Source of the DNA: Paracoccaceae bacterium
GTDB taxonomy: Bacteria; Pseudomonadota; Alphaproteobacteria; Rhodobacterales; Rhodobacteraceae
Assembly: GCA_018222585.1 (NCBI GenBank)
Contig: JAAFAB010000002.1
Location: 620,001-684,000, forward strand
DNA length: 64,000 nt
Direction: 5' to 3'
Shown: piece by piece, positions 3,830 through 20,785 of the stretch
Layout: each line of letters begins with the position of its first letter
Numbering within the stretch: position 1 is the stretch's first letter
The notes under the pieces: generated by a model
Database searches by the model: none
Told to the model about the DNA's origin: nothing
What the model saw: the letters and a program-made list of their open reading frames with translations, nothing else
Position numbers and translations under genes: made by a program

Positions 3830-4750
3830 CTACTCTACCTGGTCAACATCATACCGCTTGAGATGGTCGCGTAGGACCTCGACCACTCGCTCGGTGGCTT
3901 GCGAAGGCGGGCGCGAGGCGGGCAGCAGGATCCAGACATTCATCGTCGTCAGCGGTACCACCGGGCGGCGCACCAGCTTGTCCTCCCCATAGCCCAGCCC
4001 GACGAAGGGAGGGAGGATCGACACGCCGGCTCCCCCGGCGACGAAGTCGCAGGCGGTTTCCGACATGGGCACCTCGACGATCGACCGCTTCTGTACGCCG
4101 CGCAACTGGAAAGCGCGGTCGATGGTCATGATCGAACAGTCATCCCGCGCCAGGCCGATGAAGGGCTCATCCTTCAGGTCTTCCACCCGGATCAGTCGTT
4201 TCTCTGCCAGCGGGTGCCCCGCCGGCAGGGCGCAGACCATGGCGAAGCGCATCGCCAGCTCCGACGTAACGTTCGGATGCTCGAAAGGCTGCACCGACAG
4301 GCCGATGTCGATCTGCTGCCCCTCGACCAGTTCCGCGACCCTGGGACTGGAGTGGCTGGCGATCGAGATGTGCATTTTCGACTGTTTCGCCATCAGCGGG
4401 CCCAAGGCATGCGCCAGAAAACGGGCAGAGAGGGCGGGGGGCGCGGCAATCGTCACCTCCCCCCACTCCCGATCGCGCACCGCGCGGGCAAGCTTCTGGA
4501 TGCGGTCCGTCCCGGAGAAAAGCCTCGACACCTCGGAGGCCAAAAGCTGCGCGTCCGACGTCGGCAGCATCCGCCCACCACTGCGCGTGAACAACCGAAA
4601 GCCGCAGCTTTCTGAGAATGATTTCAATAGTTTGCTGACGGCGGGCTGGGAGATGCCCAGACGTTCGCCTGCCAGGGTTACGGAGCCCGTCTCCATGACC
4701 GCGTGGAAGGCTTCGAGCTGTCTGATGTTCACGGAAGGGGGCTCCGGCAA
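3830..4750 (-). CDS. LysR-family transcriptional regulator
   Basis: A 306-residue protein with the LysR layout. The winged helix-turn-helix is at about residues 8-66 (INIRQLEAF-like start, then GERLGISQPAVSKLLKSFE-like recognition helices), followed by a linker helix and a periplasmic-binding-like effector domain from about 90 to 300. It is divergent from the ABC-transporter/oxidase operon that starts at 4896, with about 145 bp between the two starts. This is the usual arrangement for a LysR protein that activates its neighbour in response to the transported compound. The inducer is not predictable from sequence. The HTH resembles regulators of amino-acid and opine uptake operons, but that is only a family impression. 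Confidence 0.9.
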   Translation of the reverse strand: MPEPPSVNIRQLEAFHAVMETGSVTLAGERLGISQPAVSKLLKSFSESCGFRLFTRSGGRMLPTSDAQLLASEVSRLFSGTDRIQKLARAVRDREWGEVTIAAPPALSARFLAHALGPLMAKQSKMHISIASHSSPRVAELVEGQQIDIGLSVQPFEHPNVTSELAMRFAMVCALPAGHPLAEKRLIRVEDLKDEPFIGLARDDCSIMTIDRAFQLRGVQKRSIVEVPMSETACDFVAGGAGVSILPPFVGLGYGEDKLVRRPVVPLTTMNVWILLPASRPPSQATERVVEVLRDHLKRYDVDQVE

Positions 4751-4895: not shown

Positions 4896-6506
4896 ATGAA
4901 TAAATTCGCATATCTCTGCGGGGCGGCAGCGCTGGCGCTGTCGGCGCCCGCCGCCCAGGCTCAGGTCCTGACCGTCTGTCTGGAAGGCGCGCCCGAGACC
5001 TTCAACCCAGAGCTGACCAGCAACGGCACCACCGCCTATGTGCTTGGCCAGATCTACGACGGTCTGGTGTCGGTCGAAAGGGGCGGTTCGGAGATCGAGC
5101 CCGCCCTGGCCGAAAGCTGGGAGGTCTCCGAAGACGGGCTGACCTACACCTTTGCCCTGCGGCAGGGCGTAGCCTGGCAGTCCAACGATTCCTTCACGCC
5201 CTCGCGCCCCTTCAATGCCGATGATGTCGTTTTCACCTTCCACCGGATGATGGACAGCGAAGACCCTTTCTATGAAGTCTCGGGCGGCAACTACCCGACC
5301 TTCAACGCGAAACTGGCGGACAACCTGGCCTCGGTCGAAAAGGTGGATGACTACACCGTCGCCTTCACCCTGACCAAGCCGATGGCGGCTTTCATCGGCA
5401 CGATGGCGCACGGATCGCTTGGCGTGACCTCGGCGGAATATGCCCAGGCGATGATGGATGCCGGCACGCCCGAACAACTGGACTTGGCGCCCATCGGGAC
5501 CGGCCCGTTCCAGCTTCAGGCCTATCAGACCGATGCCATGGTGCGCCTGCTGCCCTTCGCGGGCACCTGGGGCGCGGAAATGGGCGACGACCTGCGCACG
5601 CCGATGGTCGATGCGGTGGTCATGGCGATCTCGGGTGACGCCACCGTGCGCCTGCAACGGGCGCTGGCCGGTGAATGCCTGATCGGCCTCTACCCGAACC
5701 TGGCCGACAAGGAGACGATCGAGGCCTCCGACACGGTAGAGGCCGTGCAGACGCCGGTGCCCTCGACCGGGATGCTGCACTTCAACTTCGCCGAAGAACC
5801 CTTCCAGGATCAGCGGGTGCGCCAGGCCCTGGCCCAGGCCATCGACATGGAGAACTTCGTCGAGGTGATCTATTCCGGCATGGGCCATCTGACCGGTGCC
5901 GTGGTGCCGCCCGCGCTGTGGGGCACCGCCTCGGATATCGGCCCCTGGGAGTATGATCCCGAAGAGGCGAAGCGCCTGCTGGCCGAGGCTGGCTACGAGG
6001 ACGGGTTCGAGACCGAGGTCTGGGCAATTCCAGTGTCGCGTCCCTACATGCCCAACGGACGCCGCGCGGCAGAGATCATTCAGGCCGACTGGGCCGAGGT
6101 CGGCGTCGACGTGTCCATCGTGACCTACGAATGGGCCGAATACATCCAGCGCGCCCGCGCCGGCGAGGCCAAGGTGGGCATGTTCGGCGGCATCTACGAC
6201 TTCCCTGATCCCAGCCAGATCCCCAACAACTACCTGACCTGCCAGCCCGACGGCTCCACCGCGCCTTCCAACATTGGGGACTGGTGCGACGACCGCTTCA
6301 ATGAGGTGATGACCGAAGCCGGATCCATCACCGACCAGGATGAGCGGATCGCGCTTTACCATGAGGCGCAGCAGATCGTGCATGACGAGGTGCCGGTCAT
6401 CGTGCTGGGCGGGGCCGATACGATCACCGCGGTCAATACCTCGGTGCAGGGCTATGTGCCCGCCGTCTTCGGCTCGTCCCGTCTGTCGGGGGTGACCGTC
6501 GAATGA
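4896..6506 (+). CDS. ABC transporter substrate-binding protein, peptide/opine family 5
   Basis: A periplasmic binding protein of 536 residues (SBP family 5, DppA/OppA-like). The ATG at 4896 follows a good ribosome site (AGGAAGG) and gives a clear Sec signal peptide with an A-A-Q-A cleavage region near residue 23. Family landmarks include the early 'TFNPELTSNGTT' ligand-lobe segment, LAESWEVSEDGLTYTF, and a distal 'GTGPFQL' loop. Frames upstream of 4896 overlap the LysR gene and are not used. It is the first gene of an operon with two permeases and two ATPases downstream. Because the catabolic genes next to it are amine/amino-acid oxidases, the cargo is more likely a modified amino acid, opine or small peptide than a large peptide. 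That is inference. Confidence 0.9.
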   Translation: MNKFAYLCGAAALALSAPAAQAQVLTVCLEGAPETFNPELTSNGTTAYVLGQIYDGLVSVERGGSEIEPALAESWEVSEDGLTYTFALRQGVAWQSNDSFTPSRPFNADDVVFTFHRMMDSEDPFYEVSGGNYPTFNAKLADNLASVEKVDDYTVAFTLTKPMAAFIGTMAHGSLGVTSAEYAQAMMDAGTPEQLDLAPIGTGPFQLQAYQTDAMVRLLPFAGTWGAEMGDDLRTPMVDAVVMAISGDATVRLQRALAGECLIGLYPNLADKETIEASDTVEAVQTPVPSTGMLHFNFAEEPFQDQRVRQALAQAIDMENFVEVIYSGMGHLTGAVVPPALWGTASDIGPWEYDPEEAKRLLAEAGYEDGFETEVWAIPVSRPYMPNGRRAAEIIQADWAEVGVDVSIVTYEWAEYIQRARAGEAKVGMFGGIYDFPDPSQIPNNYLTCQPDGSTAPSNIGDWCDDRFNEVMTEAGSITDQDERIALYHEAQQIVHDEVPVIVLGGADTITAVNTSVQGYVPAVFGSSRLSGVTVE

Positions 6507-7606
6507 AAGTGACAGTGATTGGCGCCGGGATCCTCGGCGCCAGCACGGCTTACCACCTGGCCCTTTCGGGCCACGAGGTGACCGTGATCGACCAGGAACA
6601 CCAGGGCAAGGCGACTCTGGCCGGGGCAGGCATCGTCTGCCCCTGGGCCACCAAGGCGGATGAGCCGGAGTGGTACAAGATGTATGCCGCAGGTGCGGCC
6701 TACTATGATGCGCTGGTCAGCGACCTGGCGGCGCGCGGCGAAAGCGATGTGGGCTACCGCAAGGTGGGCGCGCTGGTGACCGCCGAGGATCCAGCGGAGT
6801 ACGACGCCGCCGGTGAACGGCTGGCGCTGCGCACCGCCGAAGCCCCCGAAAGCGGTGGCTTCGAGGAAATCAGTCCGGCTGAGGCGCAGCAGAAGTTCCC
6901 GCCGATCAACCCCGCATACAAGGCCTTCTGGGTGCCCGGTGGCGCGCGGGTGAATGCCCGCCAACTGGCGCCCGCCATGGTCCGCGCGGCGGTGGCGCTT
7001 GGCGCCACCTTCCGGAGCGACCTCGCCACGCTGGAGCTGGAGGGTGCCAAGGCCCGCGTGCTGGACGGGCAGGGGCGGGAGATCCCCTCGGACCAGATCG
7101 TCGTCACCGCCGGGGCCTGGGCGAGCCAGATCCTGGCGCCCCTGGGCCTGTCGCATCCGGTGAAACCGCAGCGCGGCCAGATCCTGCACTTCGGCATGAA
7201 GGGTGCGGATACCTCGCGCTGGTCGGTGCTGCTGCCCATGGCAAGCCACTACCTGCTGGCCTTCGACGACAGTCGGGTCGTGGTCGGCGCCACCCGCGAG
7301 GACGGCAAGGGGTTCGACTACCGCGTGACCTGCGAGGGCCAGCACGAGGTGCTCAGCGCCGCGCTGCGCTATGCCCCCGGCCTTGCGGATTCAACCCTGC
7401 TGGAAACCCGCATCGGCTTCCGCCCCGCCCCGCCCGAGTTCCGCCCCATCCTTGGCCCCGTGCCGGGTATCGAGGGGCTGATCCTCGGCAACGGCCTTGG
7501 TGCTGCAGGGCTGACCATCGGTCCGTTTGCGGGTCGCCAGCTGGCGCGCGTCGCCACCGGCGAGGCCCCCGAAGTGACCCTTGCCCCCTACGCCCCCGCC
7601 GCCTGA
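6503..7606 (+). CDS. DAO-type FAD-dependent oxidoreductase (first)
   Basis: A 367-residue flavoenzyme of the D-amino-acid oxidase/glycine oxidase/DadA superfamily. The Rossmann dinucleotide motif GAGILG is at residues 7-12, with an acidic end to the second strand (VTVIDQE). The C-terminus has the family's ILGNGLGAAGLTIGP flavin-contact region. Such enzymes oxidise a C-N bond of an amino acid or N-alkyl amino acid to an imine. The start overlaps the binding-protein stop by 4 bp (ATGA), so translation is probably coupled. The RidA-family gene immediately downstream fits an imine-releasing enzyme. Substrate unknown. Confidence 0.87.
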   Translation: MKVTVIGAGILGASTAYHLALSGHEVTVIDQEHQGKATLAGAGIVCPWATKADEPEWYKMYAAGAAYYDALVSDLAARGESDVGYRKVGALVTAEDPAEYDAAGERLALRTAEAPESGGFEEISPAEAQQKFPPINPAYKAFWVPGGARVNARQLAPAMVRAAVALGATFRSDLATLELEGAKARVLDGQGREIPSDQIVVTAGAWASQILAPLGLSHPVKPQRGQILHFGMKGADTSRWSVLLPMASHYLLAFDDSRVVVGATREDGKGFDYRVTCEGQHEVLSAALRYAPGLADSTLLETRIGFRPAPPEFRPILGPVPGIEGLILGNGLGAAGLTIGPFAGRQLARVATGEAPEVTLAPYAPAA

Positions 7607-7627: not shown

Positions 7628-8002
7628 ATGACCAACGAACGGACAGACCAAATGATCCAACGCCACAACGCCCGCCCGCATCTGCACGGCGCCTCCGTCC
7701 ACAACGGGGTGATCTATTGCTCGGGCCATGCCGCCACCAACCTTGACCTCGACATGAAGGGCCAGACGGAGGAGATCTGCGCCAAGCTGGACGCCCTGCT
7801 GTCCGAGCTGGGCTCGGACAAGTCGAAGATCCTTCAGGCCCGCGTCTACCTTTCGGACATGACTGCCAAGGCCCAGATGAACGAGGCCTGGATGGCATGG
7901 ATCGACGCCGCCGACATGCCCTCGCGCGCCGCAATCGGTGGCTGCGACCTGGGCGACCCCAAGCGCCTGGTCGAGATCGTGGTGACCGCTGCGGTCGGCT
8001 GA
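7628..8002 (+). CDS. RidA/YjgF-family protein, probable enamine/imine deaminase
   Basis: A 124-residue single-domain Rid protein with the family Arg retained in a P-S-R motif near residue 98 and the usual C-terminal 'VEIVVTAAV' strand. It resembles the Rid branch that starts with IxRH. Rid proteins hydrolyse reactive enamine/imine intermediates released by amino-acid-degrading enzymes. Placement between a DAO-type oxidase and the permeases suggests it clears the imine made by that oxidase (inference). An internal ATG at 7652 (M-I-Q-R-H) matches the family start more closely. The 7628 start is kept because GGGGGAG precedes it, but either is possible. Confidence 0.85.
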   Translation: MTNERTDQMIQRHNARPHLHGASVHNGVIYCSGHAATNLDLDMKGQTEEICAKLDALLSELGSDKSKILQARVYLSDMTAKAQMNEAWMAWIDAADMPSRAAIGGCDLGDPKRLVEIVVTAAVG

Positions 8003-8126: not shown

Positions 8127-9134
8127 TTGTTCCGTTACCTCCTCGGAAAGCTCGCGGTTCTGATCCCGACCTTCTTCGGGATCACCATCGTCGCTTTCGG
8201 GTTCGTCCGTGTCCTGCCCGGCGATCCGATCATGCTGATGGCCGGTGAACGCGGCCTGACGCCGGAACGCCACGCGCAGCTGATGGCGCAATACGGCTTC
8301 GACCGCCCGCTCTGGCAACAGTACCTGTCCTACCTCGGCGACCTCTTCCAGGGCGACCTTGGCACCTCGCTGGTGACGCACCGCCCCGTGGCCGAGGATT
8401 TCCTGACCTTCTTTCCGGCCACGATGGAACTGGGTCTTTGCACCATGATCCTGGCGATCTGCATCGGCCTGCCCCTGGGGGTGCTGGCGGCAGTGAAACG
8501 CGGCAGCTGGTTCGAGCAGATCTCGATGTCGGCGGCCCTGGTGGGCTATTCGATGCCGATCTTCTGGTGGGGCCTGCTGATGATCATCCTCTTCTCAGGC
8601 ACCCTGGGGTGGACGCCGGTTTCGGGGCGGATCTCGCTGATGTACTATTTCCCGCAGGTCACCGGCTTCATGCTGATCGACAGCCTGCTGTCGGGGCAGG
8701 CGGGGGCCTTCCGCTCGGCCGTGCTGCACCTGATCCTGCCCTCGGTGGTACTGGCCACCATCCCTGCGGCGGTCATTGCGCGCCAGTCGCGCTCGGCCAT
8801 GCTGGAGGTGCTGTCGGAGGATTTCGTGCGCACCGCCAAGGCCAAGGGCCTGGGGCCCGCGCTGGTGGTGGGGCGTCACGCGCTGCGCAATGCGCTGATC
8901 CCCGTGGTCACCGTGATCGGCCTTCAGGTCGGATCGCTCATGGCCGGGGCCATCCTGACCGAGACGATCTTTTCCTGGCCGGGCATCGGCAAGTGGATCG
9001 TCGATTCCATCTCGAAACGCGACTACCCGGTGGTGCAGGGCGGCCTGCTGGTCATCGCCGCCGTGGTGATGATCGTGAACCTGATCGTGGACCTGCTTTA
9101 TGCCGTCATCAACCCGAGGATCCGACATGGCTGA
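8127..9134 (+). CDS. ABC transporter permease, DppB-like
   Basis: A 335-residue inner-membrane permease of the dipeptide/nickel family. It starts at TTG (8127) behind a GAAAGGA ribosome site. The first transmembrane helix is typical (LAVLIPTFFGITIVAFGFVR), followed by the DppB 'LPGDP' motif. Later helices and the cytoplasmic EAA-type loop (FVRTAKAKGLGP...LRNALIP) that docks on the ATPase are present. It overlaps the next gene by 8 bp. It works with the downstream permease and the two ATPases to import the ligand of the binding protein at 4896. Confidence 0.92.
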   Translation: MFRYLLGKLAVLIPTFFGITIVAFGFVRVLPGDPIMLMAGERGLTPERHAQLMAQYGFDRPLWQQYLSYLGDLFQGDLGTSLVTHRPVAEDFLTFFPATMELGLCTMILAICIGLPLGVLAAVKRGSWFEQISMSAALVGYSMPIFWWGLLMIILFSGTLGWTPVSGRISLMYYFPQVTGFMLIDSLLSGQAGAFRSAVLHLILPSVVLATIPAAVIARQSRSAMLEVLSEDFVRTAKAKGLGPALVVGRHALRNALIPVVTVIGLQVGSLMAGAILTETIFSWPGIGKWIVDSISKRDYPVVQGGLLVIAAVVMIVNLIVDLLYAVINPRIRHG

Positions 9135-10041
9135 TCCCGCGACCCTGACCCCCGCAGCCGAGCCCGAGCGCGGCACCGCCCGCGACGCCCTGCGCGCCTT
9201 CTGGGCCGACTTCCGCCGCAACCGCGGCGCCGTGATCGGCCTGGCGGTGATCGCCTTGCTGGTGCTGGTGGCCCTGCTGGCCCCGCTGCTGGCGCCCCAT
9301 GATCCGACGCAACAATTCCGCGACGCCCTGCTGGTGCCGCCCGCCTGGCAGCCCGAGGGGCAGGGGGCCTATCTGCTGGGCACCGACGCCCTGGGTCGCG
9401 ACATCCTTTCGCGGCTGATCTTTGGCGCCCGCTATTCACTGCTGATCGGGTTGATGGTGGTGACCATCGCCCTGACCGGTGGGATCACCATCGGCGTTGT
9501 CTCGGGCTATTTCGGTGGCTGGGTGGATACGGTCATCATGCGGATTATGGACGTGATCCTGGCCTTCCCCTCGCTGTTGCTGGCGCTGGTGCTGGTGGCG
9601 ATCCTGGGGCCGGGGCTGACCAATGCGATGGTGGCCATCGCGTTGGTGCTCCAGCCGCATTTCGCCCGCCTGGCCCGGGCCAGCGTGATGAACGAGAAGA
9701 CCCGCGAATACGTGGTGGCCGCCCGCATCGCCGGGGCCTCGAACCTGCGGTTGATGCTGCGCACCATCCTTCCCAACTGCCTGGCGCCGCTGATCGTGCA
9801 GGGCACTCTGTCCTTCTCGACCGCGATCCTGGATGCCGCCGCCCTTGGCTTCCTTGGCCTTGGCGCGCAGCCGCCAACGCCCGAGTGGGGCACCATGCTG
9901 GCCGATGCGCGCGAGTTCATCCTGCGCGCGCCCTGGGTGGTGACCTTTCCGGGGCTGGCGATCCTGACCACCGTGCTGGCGATCAACCTGTGTGGCGACG
10001 GGCTCCGGGATGCGCTCGACCCGCGACTGAAAAGGGGCTGA
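9127..10041 (+). CDS. ABC transporter permease, DppC-like
   Basis: A 304-residue permease, partner of the DppB-like protein. The ATG at 9127 is chosen because it follows GAGGATCC and yields the family N-terminus. It contains an N-terminal transmembrane helix, the DppC motif LLGTDALGRDILSRLI, and an EAA loop (YVVAARIAGASNLRLMLRTILPN). It ends 5 bp before the first ATPase gene. It forms the translocation pore with the preceding protein. Confidence 0.92.
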   Translation: MADPATLTPAAEPERGTARDALRAFWADFRRNRGAVIGLAVIALLVLVALLAPLLAPHDPTQQFRDALLVPPAWQPEGQGAYLLGTDALGRDILSRLIFGARYSLLIGLMVVTIALTGGITIGVVSGYFGGWVDTVIMRIMDVILAFPSLLLALVLVAILGPGLTNAMVAIALVLQPHFARLARASVMNEKTREYVVAARIAGASNLRLMLRTILPNCLAPLIVQGTLSFSTAILDAAALGFLGLGAQPPTPEWGTMLADAREFILRAPWVVTFPGLAILTTVLAINLCGDGLRDALDPRLKRG

Positions 10042-10046
10042 GAGAG

Positions 10047-10868
10047 ATGACGACGCTACTCGAAATTCGCAATCTCACCGTCACTTTCGCGACATCCAGC
10101 GGACCGCTGATTGCGGTCTCGGGGATCGACCTGCACGTGGATGCGGGCGAGGTGCTGGCCATCGTAGGCGAAAGCGGCTCTGGCAAATCCGTGGCCATGC
10201 TTGCGGTGATGGGCCTCCTGCCCGACACCGCCACGGTCACCGCCGACATGATCCGCTTCGACGGCACCGATCTGCTGGCCCTGTCGCCGAAGGAGCGGCG
10301 CCGCATCATCGGGCGCGATATCGCCATGATCTTTCAGGAACCCATTGCCTCGCTCAACCCGGCCTTCACCGTGGGCCTGCAGATCGGCGAGGTCTTGAAA
10401 AAGCATCAGGGCATGAACCGCGCCGCGCGCCGGGCCCGCACCCTGACCCTGCTTGAGGCCGTGGGCCTGCCCGACCCGGTGGGCAAGCTGCGCGCCTATC
10501 CGCACCAGATGTCGGGCGGCCAGTGCCAGCGGGTCATGATCGCCATGGCCATCGCCTGTGCGCCGAAATTGCTGATCGCGGATGAGCCAACGACCGCGCT
10601 CGACGTGACGATCCAGAAACAGATCCTCGATCTGCTGGTCGAGTTGCAGGAGGCCTCCGGAATGGGGCTGATCATGATCACCCACGACATGGGCGTGGTG
10701 GCCGAAACCGCCGATCGGGTCATCGTCCAGTACCAGGGGGTGAAGCGGGAAGAGGCCGACGTGCTGTCGCTATTTGAGACGCCGCGGGACAGCTACACCC
10801 GCGCGCTGCTGTCGGCGCTGCCCGACCGGGCGGCGGGCGGCCCGTTGTCGGGGGTGGTGGTCTCATGA
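10047..10868 (+). CDS. ABC transporter ATP-binding protein, DppD-like
   Basis: A 273-residue ATPase. The ATG at 10047 follows AGAGAG and restores the normal N-terminus ([11 protein letters not shown]). Walker A is GESGSGKS near residue 41, the signature is MSGGQCQRV, and Walker B is [12 protein letters not shown], followed by the ITHDMGVV switch. It is shorter than typical DppD proteins (about 320 residues) because little remains after the [10 protein letters not shown] segment, so the usual C-terminal oligopeptide extension is largely missing. It overlaps the next ATPase by 4 bp. Confidence 0.9.
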
Positions 10869-11713
10869 GCCGTTTCGTGCTGGAGGCCAAGGGCCTCATC
10901 CGTGATTATCCGGGGCGCGGCGGGCTGCTGCGCAAGGCAGACCCCGTGCGGGCGCTGAAGGGGGTCGATCTGGAGTTGGAGCAGGGCACCACCCTGTCGG
11001 TGGTGGGCGAGTCGGGCTGCGGCAAGTCCACACTTGCGCGGATCCTGACCCTGATCGACCCGGCCACGGGGGGCGAACTGCTCATCGACGGCCAGGCGGT
11101 GGACATCGCCCGCCACCGCCCCTCGGCAGAAGTGCGGCGCAAGGTGCGCATCGTCTTTCAGAACCCCTATGGCTCGCTCAACCCGCGCCAGAAGGTGGGC
11201 GATGCCCTGGGGGAGGAGCTGCTGCTGAACACCGGGCTGTCGGCGCAGGACCGACGCCGCAAGGTGGGCGACATGCTGGAACGGGTCGGCCTCCAACGGG
11301 CTCATGCGGGGCGCTACCCGCATATGTTCTCGGGCGGACAGCGCCAGCGGATCGCCATCGCGCGCGCCCTGATGGTCAACCCGCGCATCCTGATCCTAGA
11401 TGAACCCGTCTCGGCGCTGGACTTGTCGGTGCAGGCCAAGGTGCTGAACCTGCTTGCTGATCTGCAGCGCGAGTTTGCGCTGTCCTACATCTTCATCAGC
11501 CATGACCTGTCGGTCGTTCGGCGGATCTCAGACAAGGTGATGGTGATGCAGGCGGGCGAGGTGGTGGAGCGCGGCACCCGGGACGCGGTCTTCGGCGCGC
11601 CCTCGCACCCCTATACGCGTCAACTGCTGGCCGCGACGCCCTCCACCGATACCGAGGCCATCCGTGCCCGGCTCGCACGCCGCGCCGCCCTGCGCGCAGA
11701 ACAGACCCTCTGA
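10865..11713 (+). CDS. ABC transporter ATP-binding protein, DppF-like
   Basis: A 282-residue ATPase, second nucleotide-binding subunit of the importer. Walker A is GESGCGKS, the Q loop lies in VFQNPYGSLNPR (typical of DppF/OppF), the signature is FSGGQRQRI, Walker B is ILILDEPVSALD, and a switch histidine is in FISHDLSV. The C-terminus stops soon after the PYTRQLLAATP segment, again shorter than most family members. Translation is probably coupled to the previous gene by the ATGA overlap. Confidence 0.92.
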   Translation: MSRFVLEAKGLIRDYPGRGGLLRKADPVRALKGVDLELEQGTTLSVVGESGCGKSTLARILTLIDPATGGELLIDGQAVDIARHRPSAEVRRKVRIVFQNPYGSLNPRQKVGDALGEELLLNTGLSAQDRRRKVGDMLERVGLQRAHAGRYPHMFSGGQRQRIAIARALMVNPRILILDEPVSALDLSVQAKVLNLLADLQREFALSYIFISHDLSVVRRISDKVMVMQAGEVVERGTRDAVFGAPSHPYTRQLLAATPSTDTEAIRARLARRAALRAEQTL

Positions 11714-11726
11714 AAAGGAGCCCCAG

Positions 11727-12833
11727 ATGCTGGACGACGACAAGGACGTGCGCCGCGATGACCGCTACGCCACGACACAGAAATATGCCTCCCTACGGGG
11801 GATCCGGGCGGCGGCGCGGAAGAACCTGTCGGACATGGTGTGGAACTACATGCACTGCGGCACCGGCGACGAGGTGACGGCGCGGGCCAATGTGGCGGCC
11901 TTCGACGACTACCTTTTCGAGGCGCCGCTGTTTGCCGGTGTGGCGAACCCCGACACCTCGACACGGGTGCTGGGCCATGACCTGACCTTTCCCGCCTTCA
12001 CCGCGCCTTTCGGCGGCGGCGAGACGCTGTTCCACCCCGAAGGTATGTGTGCCGTGGGCCGCGCCGCCCATGCGGCCGGCATAAAGCAGTTCGTACCCGT
12101 GGCGGCTGGCCATTCGCTGGAAGAGGTGCGCGCGGCCTCTCCCGCAGCGCTGGTGTTCCAGCTGACCTTCGTGGGCGAAGAGGCCCAGGTGATCGACATG
12201 ATGCACCGCGCCAAGGACGCCGGGTACGAGTACATCTGCGTCACCTATTCCCCGATCCGTCAGTGGCGCGAGCGGATGATGGAGGATCGCTTCTCTATGC
12301 CCGGCGCGGGCAAGCCCGCGAACTTCGGCCCGGACACCTCTGACCCGGCGATGTTGCAGGAGCTGCTGGATTTCACCCGGCCGCGCTGGAGCTGGGACCA
12401 GGCGGCGCGGGTCATCGCGGCCTCGCCGCTGCCCTGCATCGTCAAGGGCGTGACCAGCCGGGCCGATGCCACCGCGGCGCTGAAGGCCGGCGCGCAGGGC
12501 CTTTACGTGTCGAACTACGGTGGCCGTACGATCGACCGGGAACCGGCCTCGATCTCCACCCTGGCCGATGTCCGGGATGAGGCGGGTCCCGATGTGACTG
12601 TAGTCTTTGATAGCGGTATCCGTCGCGGGTCCGACATTGCCACGGCGCTGGCCCTTGGCGCCGATGCGGTGCTGCTGGGAAGGGCCTGTGCCCTGGGGCT
12701 GGCAGCCGATGGCGAGGCGGGGGTGAAGCGCGTCCTCGACCTTCTGCGGGACGAGTTCTGGACGACCTTGGGCCATCTGGGATGCTCCTCGGTCGCTGAT
12801 CTGTCGCCCGCCGTCTTCCGGTCGCGCCTATGA
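11727..12833 (+). CDS. FMN alpha-hydroxyacid oxidase family protein lacking catalytic residues
   Basis: A 368-residue TIM-barrel protein of the glycolate/lactate oxidase family. The ATG at 11727 follows AAGGAG. The fold landmarks are present: the N-terminal MVWNY segment (tyrosine aligned with glycolate-oxidase Tyr24), IVKGV (FMN lysine), GGR (substrate arginine), and phosphate-binding DSGIRRG and LGADAVLLGR loops. However, the nearly invariant motif SNHGGR reads SNYGGR here, so the catalytic histidine is Tyr264. The usual TVDTP motif reads VTYSP, so the partner aspartate is Tyr174. Normal 2-hydroxyacid oxidation by the known mechanism is therefore doubtful. FMN binding and another flavin chemistry remain possible. 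It sits between the ABC transporter and the second DAO-type enzyme, overlapping the latter by 4 bp. Confidence 0.85.
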   Translation: MLDDDKDVRRDDRYATTQKYASLRGIRAAARKNLSDMVWNYMHCGTGDEVTARANVAAFDDYLFEAPLFAGVANPDTSTRVLGHDLTFPAFTAPFGGGETLFHPEGMCAVGRAAHAAGIKQFVPVAAGHSLEEVRAASPAALVFQLTFVGEEAQVIDMMHRAKDAGYEYICVTYSPIRQWRERMMEDRFSMPGAGKPANFGPDTSDPAMLQELLDFTRPRWSWDQAARVIAASPLPCIVKGVTSRADATAALKAGAQGLYVSNYGGRTIDREPASISTLADVRDEAGPDVTVVFDSGIRRGSDIATALALGADAVLLGRACALGLAADGEAGVKRVLDLLRDEFWTTLGHLGCSSVADLSPAVFRSRL

Positions 12834-13930
12834 AGATCGCAGTTCTGGGCGCCGGTGCCATCGGCGCCAATATCGCTCATCGTCTGGCGGTACGTGGCGC
12901 CGAGGTGGTGCTGATCGACGGGCAGGCCCCGGCGGCGGGCACCAGTGGTGCTTCCTTTTCCTGGCTGTCGTCCTTTCCTCAGCTCTCTTGGGCCGAGGAT
13001 CCCGGACGCCGCGCGCTGCGCCTTTCGGTCAACCCCCATTTCGACCGCCTGGCGGAGGAACTGGGGGGCGACTGGCTTGACTGGTGCGGCACGCTGACGG
13101 TCGAAAGCGCGGTGCCTGCCTTCGACGGGGCGGTGGAGCGCTCGACCGAGGCCGGGGCACAGATCGAGGTCCTCGACGCCGGGGACTTGGCGCGGATCGA
13201 GCCGCATCTGAGGCTGGCAGAGGGAGAGAGGGTGGCCTTCGAGCTGCGCTCGGGCTGGGTGGATGCGCCCGCTATGATCGAGCAGCTGATCCGGGTCTTC
13301 CGCCTGTCGGGCGGCACCTTGCAGATAGGCCAGCCGGTGACCGCGCTACGCCGTGTGGGCGCCCGCGTTATCGGAGTCACCCTGGGAGACGGCACGCAGA
13401 TCGACGCGGACCTGGTGGTCAATGCCGCCGGCGCCTCCGCAACACATATCGCTGCCATGGCAGAGCTGTCGATCCCGATGGAGTTGGTGCCAGGCATGAT
13501 GCTCTATGCTGGAGCCGGAGCGACGGCCCTGCCGCGCCACGTCATCAACGGCGACCGTTGGCTACTGCGCCCGGACCGGCGCGAGGGCGTGGCGATCCAC
13601 TGGCGCGGAGAGGGGCTAACGGCCGTTCATGGCAACAACGGCGCCGATGGTCCCGCGATGCTAGCCGACGTGGCCCACTCGGTCCCAGCTCTTGTAGGAC
13701 AGCAATTAATGCGGGAACGGATCGGCATCCGAGCCATCCCCTTCGGCGGGCCAGTGATCGGCTCGCTGCCGTGGATCTCGGGGTACTACAGCGCGGTCTC
13801 CCACGGGGGGATCGGCTGGGGACCGATTTGGGCCGACCTGGCGGCACGGGAGATCCTTGACGGGACACTCGCGTCGGAGTTGTCAGGCCTGAGGCCGACG
13901 CGTTTCTACATGGATGTGCCCGAGCGGTAA
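12830..13930 (+). CDS. DAO-type FAD-dependent oxidoreductase (second)
   Basis: A 366-residue flavoenzyme of the D-amino-acid oxidase/DadA superfamily. The dinucleotide motif GAGAIG is at residues 7-12. A second glycine/serine-rich FAD segment (GTSGASFSWLSS) follows near residue 40, and a conserved VVNAAGASA segment is in the middle. It differs clearly in sequence from the first DAO-type enzyme of the operon (6503-7606), so the pair is unlikely to be a recent duplication and may act on successive intermediates. It is the last gene of the operon and overlaps the previous gene by 4 bp. The gene-free patch with a transposase remnant starts right after it. Confidence 0.86.
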   Translation: MKIAVLGAGAIGANIAHRLAVRGAEVVLIDGQAPAAGTSGASFSWLSSFPQLSWAEDPGRRALRLSVNPHFDRLAEELGGDWLDWCGTLTVESAVPAFDGAVERSTEAGAQIEVLDAGDLARIEPHLRLAEGERVAFELRSGWVDAPAMIEQLIRVFRLSGGTLQIGQPVTALRRVGARVIGVTLGDGTQIDADLVVNAAGASATHIAAMAELSIPMELVPGMMLYAGAGATALPRHVINGDRWLLRPDRREGVAIHWRGEGLTAVHGNNGADGPAMLADVAHSVPALVGQQLMRERIGIRAIPFGGPVIGSLPWISGYYSAVSHGGIGWGPIWADLAAREILDGTLASELSGLRPTRFYMDVPER

Positions 13931-14330: not shown

Positions 14331-14536
14331 GGGCGCCTGGCGCAGCGACAGGTCCCGTCCTATCAGGCGCTGGCAGGGGAGCGCTAGACCGGACCATTCT
14401 AAGGCACTAAGGTCGACGTCTCCTTCATCGAGCAGCTCGTGCTCCTCAGCCATGACCCCGGGACGCTGTGCCCATCGACCCAGACGAAAGCCTGCCTCCC
14501 TCTTCTGAGGCAGGCGGCACTGCCAGGACAAGTGAC

Positions 14537-15709
14537 ATGAAACGTCTCGACTTTCTTGACGGGATGCGGGGGTTCTTCCTGCTGACCATGGCCCTCTCCC
14601 ACCTCGTCCTGCAGGGCGGCGTATGGCTCACGGAGTTGCATTTCCGTCAACTGATGTTCGTCGAGAGTGCGCAGGGCTTCGTCTTTCTCTCGGGCCTCAT
14701 GGTCGGTCTGGTCCAGGGCAGGCGCCTGTTGCGCGACGGTCGCACCGCGATGCGAAAGTCCATCCTGTCCAGAATGGCAGAGCTCTGGCTCTGGACGGTC
14801 GGGCTGATCTTCCTGGCCCTGGTGGTCCGGGACCTCGCCCCCGGGGGCTACCTTGCCTGGCGCAACTGGCTCGGCACCGCACCGATCGGCGATCCGATGC
14901 GGATCTTCGGGATCCTGACGCTCACCTTCCAGCCGACCTTCATGGACATCCTGCCCATGTACATCTTCTTCATGGGCGCCTCGATCGTGGTCATCCGCTG
15001 GGTCGGCGAGGGGCGCTGGTGGCTCGCGGCAGGCCTGTCGGCGCTCAGCTGGATCGTATGCCAGCTGGAGGTGGCGCGGATCTGGTCCGGACCGCTGAAC
15101 GAGGCCCTGAAGGCGTCGGACACGCAGGGGCTGCGCATGGCCTTCGATCCGATGGGCTGGCAGGTCCTGTTCATCGCCGGGGTCATCCTGGGCGCCCTCT
15201 GGGCGCGCGGTCGCATCAGTTGGGACACCGTCTTCGGCCCGAAAACGCGCGGCGTGGCGTTCTGCGCCTTCGTGGTCATGCTGCTCTTCGCCCCGCTGCG
15301 CTTCGCCACCGCGCACGGGATGATGCCGCAGGAGATGCTCGAACTGTTCTGGCCGTTCGATCAGCGCTCGAATTTCAGCGTGATCTACCTGGCGAACTTC
15401 CTGGCCGCGGCCGTCCTGTTCAGCTGGCTGGTGATCGCCGGCCGCCAGGACCGGCTGGCCTCCGTCCGGATGATCTCGGGCGGTCTGCGCTGGGTCTTCA
15501 CGCAGCCCGCGCTCTGCCTGCTCGGGCGGCATTCGCTGCATGTCTATGCCTGGCATGTCGTGCTGGTCTATGCGGTGCGATATTACGACAGCGCCTGGGG
15601 GCCGAGCGGAGGAGTGACCAATACGTTCCTCGGTCTCTACGTGATCGCGTTGATGTGGGTGCCGCCTCTGATCCGAGAGCGCGCATGGCATCGCCGGATC
15701 GCAGCCTGA
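14537..15709 (+). CDS. OpgC-family membrane protein (acyltransferase-like)
   Basis: A 390-residue polytopic membrane protein with about ten hydrophobic segments. The start is at ATG 14537 (M-K-R-L-D-F-L-D-G-M-R-G), which is the signature N-terminus of the OpgC_C family. GxGFVFLSG-like and HSLHVYAWHVVLVY segments also fit. The family includes OpgC, which succinylates osmoregulated periplasmic glucans, and related acyltransferase-3-like proteins. The glucan substrate is inferred from the family only, and no opgG/opgH gene is nearby. The gene lies directly after a transposase remnant, so its present neighbourhood may be recent. Confidence 0.82.
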   Translation: MKRLDFLDGMRGFFLLTMALSHLVLQGGVWLTELHFRQLMFVESAQGFVFLSGLMVGLVQGRRLLRDGRTAMRKSILSRMAELWLWTVGLIFLALVVRDLAPGGYLAWRNWLGTAPIGDPMRIFGILTLTFQPTFMDILPMYIFFMGASIVVIRWVGEGRWWLAAGLSALSWIVCQLEVARIWSGPLNEALKASDTQGLRMAFDPMGWQVLFIAGVILGALWARGRISWDTVFGPKTRGVAFCAFVVMLLFAPLRFATAHGMMPQEMLELFWPFDQRSNFSVIYLANFLAAAVLFSWLVIAGRQDRLASVRMISGGLRWVFTQPALCLLGRHSLHVYAWHVVLVYAVRYYDSAWGPSGGVTNTFLGLYVIALMWVPPLIRERAWHRRIAA

Positions 15710-16136
15710 TCCGGAGCTCTTGAGCCAAGGCCAGTGTTGGTCATGGCGTCAAAGCCGGAACTCGGCGGCCACCGGCCACCCGGTTTCGTTTCAAGGCGAA
15801 TGGGGTCCACCCTGTGCATTCCGCGCCCTTCCTGCGCTGCCATCGCCAGGGGCGGCATCGAAGCCTGCGGGAAAGCATCTGCAGTCCGGTCGCCATGTTC
15901 CGCCGTCATCGGGCGTGTCCGATGACGGCGATCTTCAAGCCCGCCTGGTTGAGCGTCGAGGGAAGCGGCATCGGGCGGAGGTTCCGGCCACTCTCCCTTT
16001 CGCGAGCGTCCGTCAGGCGGACAGCTGAGGGTTGGGTGTCCAAGGCCCCCGTCTTCGCCGGCACACTCACGGCGCGTCTAAGTCTCGCGGTCGGGTACTG
16101 GCCGAGGGGCTCGACCTGTTGCGCTGGAGGACCGCG
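15710..16136. other. Gene-free region before the GST gene
   Basis: 427 bases without a convincing gene. All frames are short, rich in Arg/Pro/Ala and unlike known families. No strong promoter, terminator or repeat was recognised. The ribosome site of the next gene (GGAGG near 16127) is at its end. Confidence 0.35.
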
Positions 16137-16763
16137 ATGCTGGATTTTTATCACTCGCCAGGAAGCTGCTCGAACGGAATCGGCCTGTTGCTGCATGAAC
16201 TGCAGGCCGAATTCACGCTCCATCTGGTCAATGTCCGGCAGGGGGAACAGAAAAGCCCGGCCTACCGGCAGGCCAACCCCAAGGGCAAGGTTCCGGCGCT
16301 TGGCCTGCCCGGGGGGGGCGTGCTGACCGAGTTCCCGGCGATTGCCGTCTGGCTGGCCGCGCATCACCCGGCGGCCGGCCTCTGGCCAGAAACGTCGCTT
16401 GCGCAGGCGCGGATCCTCGAGGCGCTCGACTTCATGATCGGCTCGGTGCACATGCGGGGGTTCACCTTCGTGAAGATGCCGCAAAAGTTCCTCTCGGACC
16501 CCGAGGGTCAGGCGGCCCTGCGCGCCCATGGGCGCGACGAGGTCGCGCGCGGGTTGGACCTGCTGTCCGGGCAAATGGGGCAGGGGGACTACCTTCTCGG
16601 CGATTTCTCCATCGCCGATGCGGCGCTGTTCTTTCTGCTGACCTGGGCCGAGGAGGAGGGGGTCGCGCTGCCGCCGAACCTCGCCGACTGCCTGGCGCGC
16701 ATCCGGGCGCGCCCCGCCTGCCAGGCCGCCGCCCCGTTGCTGCGGCGCCAGGTCACCGCATGA
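16137..16763 (+). CDS. Glutathione S-transferase family protein
   Basis: A 208-residue GST. The ATG at 16137 follows GGAGG. The N-terminal thioredoxin fold begins with DFYHSPGSCSN, placing Ser/Cys at the usual catalytic position. The cis-proline motif is GKVPAL and the glutathione-contact motif is TEFPAIAVWL. The all-alpha domain has the GDFSIADAALF helix-capping box. In catabolic clusters such enzymes often act as glutathione-dependent isomerases (maleylpyruvate or maleylacetoacetate type) or dehalogenases. Its 4-bp overlap with the sulfatase gene and the ring-cleavage genes downstream make an isomerase role plausible but unproven. Confidence 0.85.
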   Translation: MLDFYHSPGSCSNGIGLLLHELQAEFTLHLVNVRQGEQKSPAYRQANPKGKVPALGLPGGGVLTEFPAIAVWLAAHHPAAGLWPETSLAQARILEALDFMIGSVHMRGFTFVKMPQKFLSDPEGQAALRAHGRDEVARGLDLLSGQMGQGDYLLGDFSIADAALFFLLTWAEEEGVALPPNLADCLARIRARPACQAAAPLLRRQVTA

Positions 16764-18418
16764 GCAAGGCGCGCAATATCCTCTTCGTTATGTTCGACCA
16801 GCTGCGCTGGGATTACCTCTCCTGCTATGGCCATCCGACCCTCAAGACGCCACATATCGACCGGCTGGCGGCGCGGGGTCTGCGTTTCACCCGCGCCTAT
16901 GTGCAGGCGCCGCTGTGTGGCCCGTCGCGGATGTCGACCTACACGGGTCGTTACGTGCACAGTCACGGCGCCAGTTGGAACGCCACGCCGCTGAAGGTCG
17001 GCGAACAGACCATGGGCGACCATCTGCGCCGGGCGGGCATGGAGTGCTGGCTGGTCGGAAAGACCCACATGGCTGCCGATGCCGAGGGCATGGCCCGGCT
17101 GGGGCTGGACCCCGACAGCGTGATTGGTGCCCGCGTCGCCGAATGCGGTTTCGATATCTACGAGCGCGACGACGGGATGCGTGCCGTCGGCCCCGATGGC
17201 CCGCTGAAGGAACCGGGCGGCACTGCCTATGACGCCTATCTCGCCGCGCGCGGCTATGCGGGTGACAACCCCTGGCACGACCATGCCAATTCCGGCGTGG
17301 ATGCGGCCGGAAACGTGCTCTCGGGCTGGTTCATGCAGAACGCCGGCGAGGCGGCGAATATCGAGGAACCCGACAGCGAGACCCCCTACCTGACCCGCCG
17401 CGGCATGGAGTTCATCGACAGCCGGGGCACCTCCCCATGGCTCTGCCATCTCAGCTATATCAAGCCGCATTGGCCCTATATCGTGCCCGCGCCCTACAAT
17501 GACATGTATGGGCCCGCCGACGTGCTGCCGCCCAATCGCAGCGCCGCCGAATACGACAACGCCCACCCGGTTCTGAAGGCCTTCATGACCACCCCCGTCG
17601 GCCAGGCCTTTGCCCGCGACGACGTGCGCGAGGCGGTGATCCCCGCCTACATGGGGCTGATCAAGCAATGCGACGACCAGATGGGCTTGCTGCTGGACTG
17701 GCTGGAGGACACGGGGCGGATGGAAGACACGATGATCGTGCTGACCTCCGACCACGGCGACTTCCTCGGCGATCACTGGATGGGCGAGAAGACCTTTTTC
17801 CAGGATGCCGCCGTCAAGGTGCCGCTGATCATCTACGATCCCTCGCCCGAGGCCGATGCAACGCGCGGCACCACCTGCGACGAGCTGGTCGAGGCCATCG
17901 ACCTGGCGCCGACCTTCATCGACGTGGCGGGGGGCTCGGTGCCCGACCATGTGCTCGAGGGGCACTCTCTGCTGCCGCTGCTGCGCGGGGAAGGGGGATG
18001 GGATCGCGACCGGGTGATCTGCGAATACGATTTCGCTGCCACGCCGTTGGCGGACCGCCTCGGGCTTTCGGTGCGTGAAGCGGTGTTGTTCATGGTCGCC
18101 GACAAGCGTTGGAAGCTGATCCACTGCGAGGGGGACTTTCCGCCGATCCTCTTCGACCTGCAAGATGACCCGGACGAGCTGATAGATCTGGGGCGCGACC
18201 CTGCCCATGCCGAGGTGATCGCGCAGATGTACGCCAAGCTGCACGCATGGACCCGCCGCGTGGCGCAACGCACCACCCGTACCGAGGAACAGCTGGTCGA
18301 ACTGCGCAAGACCCTGCGGCGGCGCGGCGTGGTGCTGGGCGTCTATGACGAGAACGACGTGCCGCTGGAGCTGACCGTGGCCTATCGCGACCGCAAGGCA
18401 CCCGACAGGCGGGGCTGA
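16760..18418 (+). CDS. Sulfatase / phosphonate monoester hydrolase-like enzyme
   Basis: A 552-residue enzyme of the alkaline-phosphatase superfamily. The formylglycine motif C-x-P-x-R is present as LCGPSR with Cys53. Metal ligands fit Asp13-Gln14 at the N-terminus and the TSDHGD motif in the middle. The Asp-Gln pair and overall length are closer to phosphonate monoester hydrolases and choline-sulfatase-like enzymes than to large arylsulfatases. There is no signal peptide, so it is probably cytoplasmic. Activity needs conversion of Cys53 to formylglycine, and no maturase gene is in the window. It would release an alcohol or phenol from a sulfate, phosphate or phosphonate ester, which could then feed the flavin hydroxylase downstream (inference). 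Confidence 0.88.
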   Translation: MSKARNILFVMFDQLRWDYLSCYGHPTLKTPHIDRLAARGLRFTRAYVQAPLCGPSRMSTYTGRYVHSHGASWNATPLKVGEQTMGDHLRRAGMECWLVGKTHMAADAEGMARLGLDPDSVIGARVAECGFDIYERDDGMRAVGPDGPLKEPGGTAYDAYLAARGYAGDNPWHDHANSGVDAAGNVLSGWFMQNAGEAANIEEPDSETPYLTRRGMEFIDSRGTSPWLCHLSYIKPHWPYIVPAPYNDMYGPADVLPPNRSAAEYDNAHPVLKAFMTTPVGQAFARDDVREAVIPAYMGLIKQCDDQMGLLLDWLEDTGRMEDTMIVLTSDHGDFLGDHWMGEKTFFQDAAVKVPLIIYDPSPEADATRGTTCDELVEAIDLAPTFIDVAGGSVPDHVLEGHSLLPLLRGEGGWDRDRVICEYDFAATPLADRLGLSVREAVLFMVADKRWKLIHCEGDFPPILFDLQDDPDELIDLGRDPAHAEVIAQMYAKLHAWTRRVAQRTTRTEEQLVELRKTLRRRGVVLGVYDENDVPLELTVAYRDRKAPDRRG

Positions 18419-18571
18419 GCCTGCGCGGGGCGCTCAGGGCGGCGTCCACTCTGCGAACAGCCTGCCCCCGCCGATGGTCCCTGAAGGGGTGGCGGGGGAG
18501 AAGGGGAAAACCTCCCGGCGATGCCTCACGGGCCTGCGGGGAGCGAGAGCCGACAGCGAAAGGTAGAAGCG

Positions 18572-20173
18572 ATGTCCCCATTTCCGACCGAGGTGCCCGT
18601 GGTGATCGTGGGCGCAGGCCCGACCGGGCTGACCACGGCCAACCTGCTGGCCCGCTATGGCGTCGACTGCCTGCTGCTGGAACGCGATGCCGGCCCGATG
18701 AACCTGCCGCGCGCGATCGTCATCGACGACGAGGGCGCGCGGGTGCTGCAGGTCTTCGGGCTGGACCGGACCTACCTGAAGGACACGATGGAGGGGGTCG
18801 GGTCCCGCTACTTCGACGACGCGGGCACCTGCTTTGCCGAGACCGGGCGCGGCCCGCGCAACTTCGGCTTTGCCAAGCGCCAGTTCATCTTCCAGCCCGA
18901 GCTGGAAGCGGCCTTGCGCGACCGGCTGGAGGAGCAGGCCCCCGGCACGCTGCGCTTTGCGGCCGAGGTGACGGAGATCCGGCAGGAGGGCGACATCGCG
19001 CTGGTCACCGTCACTGATCCTGATGGCCACCAGCACCGGATCCGCACCGGCTGGGTGCTGGCCTGCGACGGCGGCCGCAGCCCGATCCGCGAGAGCCTCG
19101 GCATCCCGATGTCCGGCAATACCTACGAGGAGGACTGGATCGTCGTCGATACCCGCAACGATCCCGATGACTCGCTCTTTTCCAAGTTCTTCTGTTCCGA
19201 CGTGCGGCCGACCGTCTCGGTTCCCGCGCCCAATGGCGGGCGGCGCTACGAATTCATGCTGCTGCCGGGAGAGACCCGCGAGCAGGCGATGAGCGACGAG
19301 ATGCTCTCGGGCCTGATGGCGCCGCTGCGGCCCTGGCGCCCCGAGGATATCATTCGCCGCACGGTCTATACCTTCCATGCCCGCATGGCAGAGCAGTTCC
19401 GCGCCGGACGCATCCTGCTGATGGGGGACGCCGCGCACCTGACGCCGCCCTTCGCCGGGCAGGGGATGAACGCGGGCCTGCGCGATGCCCAGAACGTCGC
19501 CTGGAAGGTCGCGGCCCATGTCCTCGGCGGGGCGGGTGACCGGCTGGACAGCTACGAGGCCGAGCGCCGCGCGCCGGCCTGGGACATGATCCAGCTGGCG
19601 GTGGCCATGGGCTCGATCGTGATGCCGGCGGGGCGCGACCAGATCGTCTTCCGCGACCTGCTGCTGAAGGCGCTGCAGCCCTTCCCCAATGTCCGCGACT
19701 ACCTGATCCAGATGCGCTTCAAGCCGAAACCGCGCTACGCGGCGGGGCTGTTCCTTGGCCTCGATGCGCCCGAGCTGGAGGCCTCGCTGGTCGGCGAGAT
19801 GATTCCCCAGCCCGAGCTTTCGGGCGCGGTGCCCGGCCTGCTGGACGAGGCGCTTGGCCCGGGCTTCGCGCTGATCGCGCAGGATGCAGCGGGCGCGGCG
19901 GCGCTGGAGGCGCTGGAACAGACCAGCCTGATGGGGCTGCCGCTGGCGAAGGTGGTGCTGGACACCGCAGGGCGCGGCGTGGGGCTTGCGCCTGCCGATG
20001 CCACCGTGGCGCGGCCCTTCCGCACCCACCGGGATCAGATCCTGCTGATCCGCCCGGACCGCTACTGCGCCGCCGCCACGGCGCCCGGGGCGCTCGGTCG
20101 GATGCTGAAGGACTACGCCGCCGCGCTTGGCGAAACGACGACGGGGCGGCAGGCGGAAAGCCTGTCCGCCTGA
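18572..20173 (+). CDS. Class A flavin monooxygenase (aromatic hydroxylase)
   Basis: A 533-residue FAD-dependent hydroxylase of the PheA/MhpA type. The ATG at 18572 follows AAAGGTAG. It has GAGPTG (residues 14-19) for FAD binding, the DG motif in DGGRSPIRESLGI, and the GD motif in GDAAHLTPPFAGQGMNAGLRD, which together define group A aromatic hydroxylases. A C-terminal thioredoxin-like region (FRTHRDQILLIRPD) is typical of 3-(3-hydroxyphenyl)propionate and phenol hydroxylase relatives. Expected reaction: NAD(P)H- and O2-dependent ortho-hydroxylation of a phenol to a catechol. The extradiol dioxygenase at 24816 would then open the ring. The exact phenol is unknown. Confidence 0.9.
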   Translation: MSPFPTEVPVVIVGAGPTGLTTANLLARYGVDCLLLERDAGPMNLPRAIVIDDEGARVLQVFGLDRTYLKDTMEGVGSRYFDDAGTCFAETGRGPRNFGFAKRQFIFQPELEAALRDRLEEQAPGTLRFAAEVTEIRQEGDIALVTVTDPDGHQHRIRTGWVLACDGGRSPIRESLGIPMSGNTYEEDWIVVDTRNDPDDSLFSKFFCSDVRPTVSVPAPNGGRRYEFMLLPGETREQAMSDEMLSGLMAPLRPWRPEDIIRRTVYTFHARMAEQFRAGRILLMGDAAHLTPPFAGQGMNAGLRDAQNVAWKVAAHVLGGAGDRLDSYEAERRAPAWDMIQLAVAMGSIVMPAGRDQIVFRDLLLKALQPFPNVRDYLIQMRFKPKPRYAAGLFLGLDAPELEASLVGEMIPQPELSGAVPGLLDEALGPGFALIAQDAAGAAALEALEQTSLMGLPLAKVVLDTAGRGVGLAPADATVARPFRTHRDQILLIRPDRYCAAATAPGALGRMLKDYAAALGETTTGRQAESLSA

Positions 20174-20221
20174 GATCCGCGCGGCAGGGAGGCCGCGCGG
20201 CACAACGAGGGAGGAGAGACG

Positions 20222-20755
20222 ATGAACATGGTCTGGAACAGATCCATGTCCCTGGCCCGGGGGCTGGCCCTGCTGGGCTTCGTGGGCTTGTTGGTGCTGG
20301 CGCTGATGACCACGCTCGACGTGGGCCTGCGCTGGCTCTTCAAGGCGCCGATCCAGGGGGTGAACGATGTCAGCTCGGTGGTCATGGCCGTGGTGATCTC
20401 GGCTTGCATTCCGGCGAACCTCGCCATGAAGCAGAACATCCGGGTCGAGGTCTTCGGCGCGCTCGGCGGGCTCTGGCTGCACCGGTTGCTGGAGGCGCTC
20501 TCCAGCCTGCTGACCATGATCTTCATCCTGCTCATGGCCTGGCAGTTCGTGCCCTATGCGCTTTCGCTGTACGAGAACGGCGACCGCACCTGGGTGCTGG
20601 GCTGGCCGGTCTGGCCCTGGTGGAGCGTTGCCACGGTGATGGTCTGCCTCGCCGCCTTGGTGCAGGCCATGGTGCTGCTGCTGGACCTGCTGGCGCTGCT
20701 CGGCGGGCACGGGCCGCAGCCGCCAGAGACCCCCGAAGTCGACACCGCCCTCTGA
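20222..20755 (+). CDS. TRAP transporter small permease, DctQ-like
   Basis: A 177-residue integral membrane protein with four hydrophobic helices. It carries the DctQ hallmark of an early R-x-x-F near LRWLFKAPIQGVNDVSS followed by 'CIPANLAMKQNIRVEVF'. It follows a good ribosome site (GAGGGAGGAGAG). Together with the large permease and binding protein downstream it makes a complete TRAP importer for an organic acid. The TRAP genes sit inside the catabolic cluster, so the cargo is probably its substrate, an aromatic or other carboxylate. Confidence 0.9.
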   Translation: MNMVWNRSMSLARGLALLGFVGLLVLALMTTLDVGLRWLFKAPIQGVNDVSSVVMAVVISACIPANLAMKQNIRVEVFGALGGLWLHRLLEALSSLLTMIFILLMAWQFVPYALSLYENGDRTWVLGWPVWPWWSVATVMVCLAALVQAMVLLLDLLALLGGHGPQPPETPEVDTAL

Positions 20756-20785
20756 CCCAGCCCGTAAAGCCAAGGACTAGACCCA

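Follow-up and report, generated by a model that had tools for sequence, protein, structure and literature searches.

A Tyr-type variant of the FMN-dependent alpha-hydroxy acid oxidase fold, putatively shifted to amine chemistry, in an alphaproteobacterial operon

A protein with the fold of the FMN-dependent alpha-hydroxy acid oxidases, in which tyrosine stands in place of the catalytic histidine and serine in place of the catalytic aspartate, is encoded in a stretch of 64,000 nucleotides (the window; contig JAAFAB010000002.1, positions 620,001 to 684,000) from a marine Paracoccaceae bacterium. We refer to this protein and its orthologues as Tyr-type. Judged from its sequence, the protein combines a known fold with a putative new catalytic site and is under selection. 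The ordinary hydroxy-acid oxidase chemistry has very probably been lost, and the reaction probably differs from that of its relatives. Our preferred reading, to which we give a probability of about 0.45, is that the protein is a functional FMN flavoenzyme of a distinct Tyr-type subfamily that has moved to amine chemistry within an operon for N-carboxyalkyl amino acids. Its role appears amine-linked; both the reaction on an amine and the nature of the substrate are inferences.

The open reading frame at 11727-12833 of the forward strand is uninterrupted and encodes 368 residues. It starts 13 nt after the preceding ATPase gene and overlaps the next gene, FADox2, by 4 nt, in agreement with the initial annotation, which described an uninterrupted gene inside a coupled operon. 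The protein scored 322.8 bits with the FMN_dh profile (PF01070), whose curated cut-off is 24.9. Fold comparison placed it in the FMN-dependent alpha-hydroxy acid oxidase/dehydrogenase family with human glycolate oxidase nearest, and its best sequence matches were glycolate oxidases together with a construct that contains two copies of L-lactate oxidase; the predicted structure has low confidence at residues 1-13 and 184-213. MftD was the top NCBIfam match by E-value. Identity with MftD (TIGR03966, equivalog; 200.8 bits) and with L-lactate oxidase (TIGR02708, equivalog; 168.6 bits) was rejected, the scores being far under the cut-offs of 470.85 and 645.5, respectively.

Table 1. Features of the window discussed in the text (GOX, glycolate oxidase)
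Feature	Position	Strand	Basis or remark
LysR-type regulator, divergent from operon	3830..4750	-	Pfam LysR_substrate and HTH_1
Periplasmic binding protein, SBP_bac_5	4896..6506	+	Nearest solved relatives DppA-type (dipeptide-binding)
FADox1, DAO-family FAD oxidase	6503..7606	+	Nearest iminodiacetate oxidase IdaA of Chelativorans BNC1
Rid-family protein (imine/enamine hydrolase family)	7628..8002	+	Pfam; nearest solved relative PA5083
DppB-type permease	8127..9134	+	Profile match
OppC/DppC-type permease	9127..10041	+	Profile match
ABC ATPase 1	10047..10868	+	Profile match scanned from 10050; ATG at 10047 from ORF
ABC ATPase 2 with oligo_HPY domain	10865..11713	+	Profile match
Ribosome-binding sequence AAGGAG	11715..11720	+	6 nt before ATG of FMN gene, read directly
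Tyr-type FMN protein (alpha-hydroxy acid oxidase fold)	11727..12833	+	ORF, Pfam, alignment, fold comparison
Thr147 codon, Tyr129 of GOX	12165..12167	+	Alignment
Ser175 codon, Asp157 of GOX	12249..12251	+	Alignment; Tyr174 codon at 12246-12248
Arg178 codon, Leu161 of GOX, taken as pocket residue	12258..12260	+	Alignment
Tyr264 codon, catalytic His254 of GOX	12516..12518	+	Alignment
FADox2, DAO-family oxidase	12830..13930	+	Nearest 7fgp, flavin-containing opine dehydrogenase, 92.5 bits

The replacement of active-site residues was examined in an alignment of 33 full-length Tyr-type proteins (the window's, L035, L036, and L039-L068) with 36 other homologues (GOX, L037, L038, and 33 further loci); a fragment that has the histidine (L012) and a truncated Tyr-type copy (L069) were left out. 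The residue numbers of GOX (His254, Asp157, Tyr129, and so on) are those that we take to belong to the aligned positions. The initial annotation had noticed that the SNHGGR motif reads SNYGGR, and the alignment bore this out: Tyr264 fell on the histidine column in all three MAFFT modes and is found in 33/33 Tyr-type proteins, versus histidine in 36/36 others. Four further homologues, MftD included, all carry both histidine and aspartate, bringing histidine to 40 of the 40 non-Tyr-type proteins examined. At the position of Asp157, all 33 Tyr-type proteins have serine (Ser175), followed directly by a one-residue deletion relative to GOX, versus aspartate in all 36 others. Three MAFFT modes and a HMMER alignment with the glycolate oxidase of spinach gave this register, and its anchor is Thr173 (Thr155 of GOX; threonine in 36/36 other homologues, and threonine in 31 and serine in 2 of the Tyr-type proteins). 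Tyr174, which had been assigned to Asp157 (TVDTP to VTYSP) in the initial annotation, instead aligns with Val156 (tyrosine in 32 Tyr-type proteins and phenylalanine in one, L045). The assignment was therefore a register error; the catalytic aspartate is lost in either register, but the proposed pair of tyrosines at two catalytic positions does not stand. The alignment revealed no shifted residues supplying His254 or Asp157, and the gap near Asp157 lies after Ser175.

The third change, QLYVY to QLTFV at the Tyr129 position, was likewise read correctly from the outset: threonine (Thr147) is present in 32/33 Tyr-type proteins and serine in one. This position is variable within the family, since the other homologues are split between tyrosine (30) and histidine (6). 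Two residues close to Ser175 also distinguish the group, namely Arg178 (33/33 versus at most 2/36) and Gln179 (Gly162 of GOX; 33/33 versus 0/36). The earlier statement that the FMN lysine, the GGR arginine, and the phosphate loops are intact agrees with the invariance, in 33/33 Tyr-type proteins, of Lys240 and the phosphate-loop/flavin residues Asp295, Gly297, Arg299, and Arg319, and of the carboxylate-binding residues Tyr41 (Tyr24), Arg181 (Arg164), and Arg267 (Arg257). The predicted FMN site (Lys240, Asp295, Arg299, Arg319, and Gln145) and the putative carboxylate clamp (Tyr41, Arg181, and Arg267) are retained in the Tyr-type protein, and the set predicted to act on the hydroxyl group is lost (His254 to Tyr, Asp157 to Ser, Tyr129 to Thr); Arg178 was gained at a position that, like that of Ser175, the alignment places in the likely pocket. 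Tyr264 and Ser175 are not a matter of chance because they are fixed in 33/33 proteins down to 62% identity to the window's protein, while the codon of Tyr264 alternates between TAC (21 genes) and TAT (12 genes).

In a 49-row tree containing 12 representatives of the 33 Tyr-type proteins, the Tyr-type formed one clade (support 100/100, stem 0.88), whose sisters are two His-type proteins encoded on actinobacterial plasmids (L037 and L038). The dN/dS ratios were 0.045-0.10 in six pairs, and the group is under strong purifying selection; ratios for pairs with the window gene are left unquoted, as dS was at least 0.8 in eight of those nine pairs. The group is small and strongly conserved, and it is rare. 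A Tyr-type gene was found in 3 of 100 genomes, the window's own and 2 of 21 from the same genus, whose proteins are 98% identical to that of the window. Among 292 genomes of the order, seven matches were obtained at E <= 1e-60, and only the window's own was Tyr-type; among 385 genomes of the class, the sole match at E <= 1e-70 was again the window's own. Of five matches obtained at E <= 1e-45 among 398 genomes of the phylum, the window's own reached 694.4 bits and none of the others exceeded 194.8. Histidine and aspartate are present in three of the remaining four; the last (L086) coincides with locus L008, where both residues are found. No independent Tyr-type origin was seen in these sampled genomes of the order, class, and phylum. 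The contig scan for orthologues relied on a pair of peptide patterns characteristic of this clade, which distant Tyr-type members could escape. Our searches among openly licensed papers turned up none describing a Tyr-type protein of this kind.

The FMN gene is the eighth of nine genes of the same direction, encoding a binding protein, FADox1, a Rid protein, two permeases, two ATPases, the FMN protein, and FADox2, with a divergent LysR gene in front (Table 1). The genes for LysR, the binding protein, FADox1, RidA, and the FMN protein occur together in 31/33 loci. The LysR orthologue adjoins the operon in 31/33 loci as well, and in L068 it lies on the operon's own strand. FADox1 is 53% identical to IdaA over the full length. 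The best matches of the Rid protein were PA5083 (67.8 bits), 3gtz (63.1), and PSPTO_0102 (61.1), the first and last of which are labelled Rid2 (PMC5619798); Rid2 proteins hydrolyse imines made by amino-acid oxidases (PMC4433059, PMC5619798). No chain named EppA appeared among the best 60 of 90 matches to the binding protein. A DAO-type oxidase gene lies within 1.5 kb in 33/34 Tyr-type loci versus 0/36 His-type loci. The probes for this count were the oxidases and the Rid protein of the window itself, so that it is biased towards their kin and a more distant DAO gene near His-type genes may escape; some of the stretches were cut by contig ends (the shortest being 2635 bases for His-type and 3277 for Tyr-type). 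In the one Tyr-type locus outside this distance (L065), FADox1 stands farther off.

The arrangement varies. In Bosea robiniae (L061, 4244-13506), the FMN-FADox2 pair occurs without FADox1 and the usual module, amid genes for a PotD-type ABC transporter, an isochorismatase-family hydrolase, and an M24 prolidase-like protein. Plasmid pAMI4 of Paracoccus aminophilus (L080, 6223-10508) carries LysR-SBP-FADox1-RidA without an annotated FMN gene, followed by a Stf0 sulfotransferase gene.

FMN alpha-hydroxy acid oxidases such as glycolate oxidase, HAO1, lactate oxidase, and mandelate oxidase have His, Asp157, Tyr129, and Leu161 where the window protein has Tyr, Ser with a one-residue deletion, Thr, and Arg; unlike those PF01070 oxidases, the window protein belongs to an operon of amine-oxidation genes. 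MftD, which shares this fold and which we take to oxidise an amine with its FMN, retains SNHGG and the aspartate and has asparagine at the Arg257 position, where the window protein has Tyr264, Ser175, and Arg267. The dguRABC locus for D-glutamate utilization in Pseudomonas aeruginosa presumably unites LysR, an FAD oxidase, a Rid2 protein, and a binding protein, as the window does, and the window Rid protein is nearest to PA5083. In gene composition, the window's operon differs from dguRABC in its extra FMN protein, Dpp-type permeases, ATPases, and second FAD oxidase. The IdaA pathway of Chelativorans sp. BNC1 combines ABC import with oxidative N-C cleavage, in which IdaA cleaves N-carboxymethyl groups to glyoxylate (PMC7312458). 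The window resembles it in FADox1, a full-length relative of IdaA, and in its genes for ABC import, and differs in the binding protein, which is nearest to DppA-type chains; the words "hydroxy acid" are absent from that paper, and hence no such FMN protein is named in it. FADox2 is nearest to a chain titled as a flavin-containing opine dehydrogenase (Odh). In Odh, the FMN is thought to sit between the alpha and beta subunits (PMC4575208), whereas the FMN protein of the window has the glycolate-oxidase fold.

Under the preferred reading, the Dpp-type transporter would import a small N-carboxyalkyl amino acid (iminodiacetate, an opine, or a related dipeptide-sized compound) or a D-amino acid; C-N bonds would be oxidised by FADox1, FADox2, and the FMN protein alike, and hydrolysis of the imines so formed would fall to the Rid protein. 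The substrate of the FMN protein would carry a carboxylate, and the bond to be oxidised would require no base; a secondary amine of the IdaA type is the simplest candidate. A neutral amine is able to pass its hydride to the flavin with no general base involved, which would explain how the His/Asp pair could be lost and the clamp retained. Arg178 could hold a second carboxylate. A more specific and more tentative version is that a glycolate-oxidase-fold enzyme abandoned the His/Asp base of its family and now uses FMN to oxidise secondary amines such as iminodicarboxylates or opines. It would work alongside an IdaA-like FAD oxidase that differs from it in stereo- or regiospecificity, and Arg178 would anchor the second carboxylate. 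The Bosea gene counts for amine chemistry, as it again adjoins a DAO oxidase (FADox2), though the transporter differs. Against it, MftD keeps both His and Asp, so that loss of the two is not required for amine chemistry; the Paracoccus module suggests that the FMN protein is not needed in every such pathway; and IdaA is a relative of the neighbouring FADox1, not of the FMN protein.

Several other explanations were weighed. The enzyme may still use an alpha-hydroxy or alpha-keto acid, such as the glyoxylate that IdaA-like cleavage releases, by an altered chemistry, either with Tyr264 as the base or through oxidative decarboxylation or monooxygenation. The intact clamp is consistent with this, as is the availability of glyoxylate as a product of IdaA chemistry (PMC7312458), and in Hmo the Y128F mutation, at the counterpart of Tyr129/Thr147, converts the oxidase into an oxidative decarboxylase (PMC6677016). 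We nevertheless regard it as unlikely: the Hmo H252F mutant lost its activity (PMC6677016), histidine and its aspartate partner are both gone in 33/33 proteins, and the neighbouring genes point to amine oxidation. The result with H252F also makes ordinary hydroxy-acid oxidation unlikely without the histidine, and it seems quite improbable that Tyr264 simply stands in for it in a slower L-2-hydroxy acid oxidase. Such an enzyme would fit the intact FMN site, the nearness in fold to human glycolate oxidase, and the best sequence matches, but histidine is kept in every other homologue examined, and aspartate and Tyr129 were lost along with it.

The loss of three catalytic positions and the nearly constant proximity of a DAO-type oxidase gene would also suit a catalytically silent flavin-binding partner, acting as an electron-transfer or regulatory subunit of FADox1 or FADox2, and in some opine dehydrogenases FAD and FMN are both present, distributed over the subunits (PMC4575208). 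A silent partner would not need invariant substrate-clamp residues, however; the FADox1 relative of the Paracoccus module has no FMN protein beside it, and the partner varies, being FADox2 without FADox1 in Bosea. We consider this explanation improbable. The initial annotation had left the choice between a new activity and a non-catalytic role; the invariant flavin and carboxylate residues, together with the adjoining FAD amine oxidases (33/34 versus 0/36 loci), make a new activity more likely than a purely structural function. Its view that the gene is not decaying is upheld by the single clade, the synonymous-only change at Tyr264, the low dN/dS, and the conserved operon position. Decay, or a sequencing artefact of one genome, might be suspected from the missing catalytic residues and the one truncated copy (L069), but is refuted by the 33 full-length copies, the window's included, the dN/dS values, and the conserved operon.

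The debate on carbanion versus hydride transfer in alpha-hydroxy acid oxidases has centred on the histidine base (PMC10153336). A natural, selected lineage without this base, with its flavin and carboxylate sites intact, would offer a ready test case. The operon also points to an uncharacterised route for the uptake and oxidation of small N-carboxyalkyl compounds in marine and soil alphaproteobacteria.

The operon is plasmid-borne in Salipiger abyssi (L035) and Rhizobium sp. SSA_523 (L036), and the copies of Martelella (L067) and Chelativorans (L045) fall among the Rhodobacterales in the tree, which together suggest horizontal transfer. The truncated copy in Microvirga lupini (L069, 10001-10756) has a stop inside the match and is followed by an open reading frame that, read by eye, resembles an IS transposase. 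In L035, a second and distant alpha-hydroxy acid oxidase gene (2388-3566; 26%) lies near a gene for a thiamine-pyrophosphate enzyme, about 8 kb from the Tyr-type gene. Downstream of the operon, the window (14468-22087) encodes OpgC-like and GST-like proteins, a sulfatase, a FAD_binding_3 protein, and the DctQ/DctM components of a TRAP transporter.
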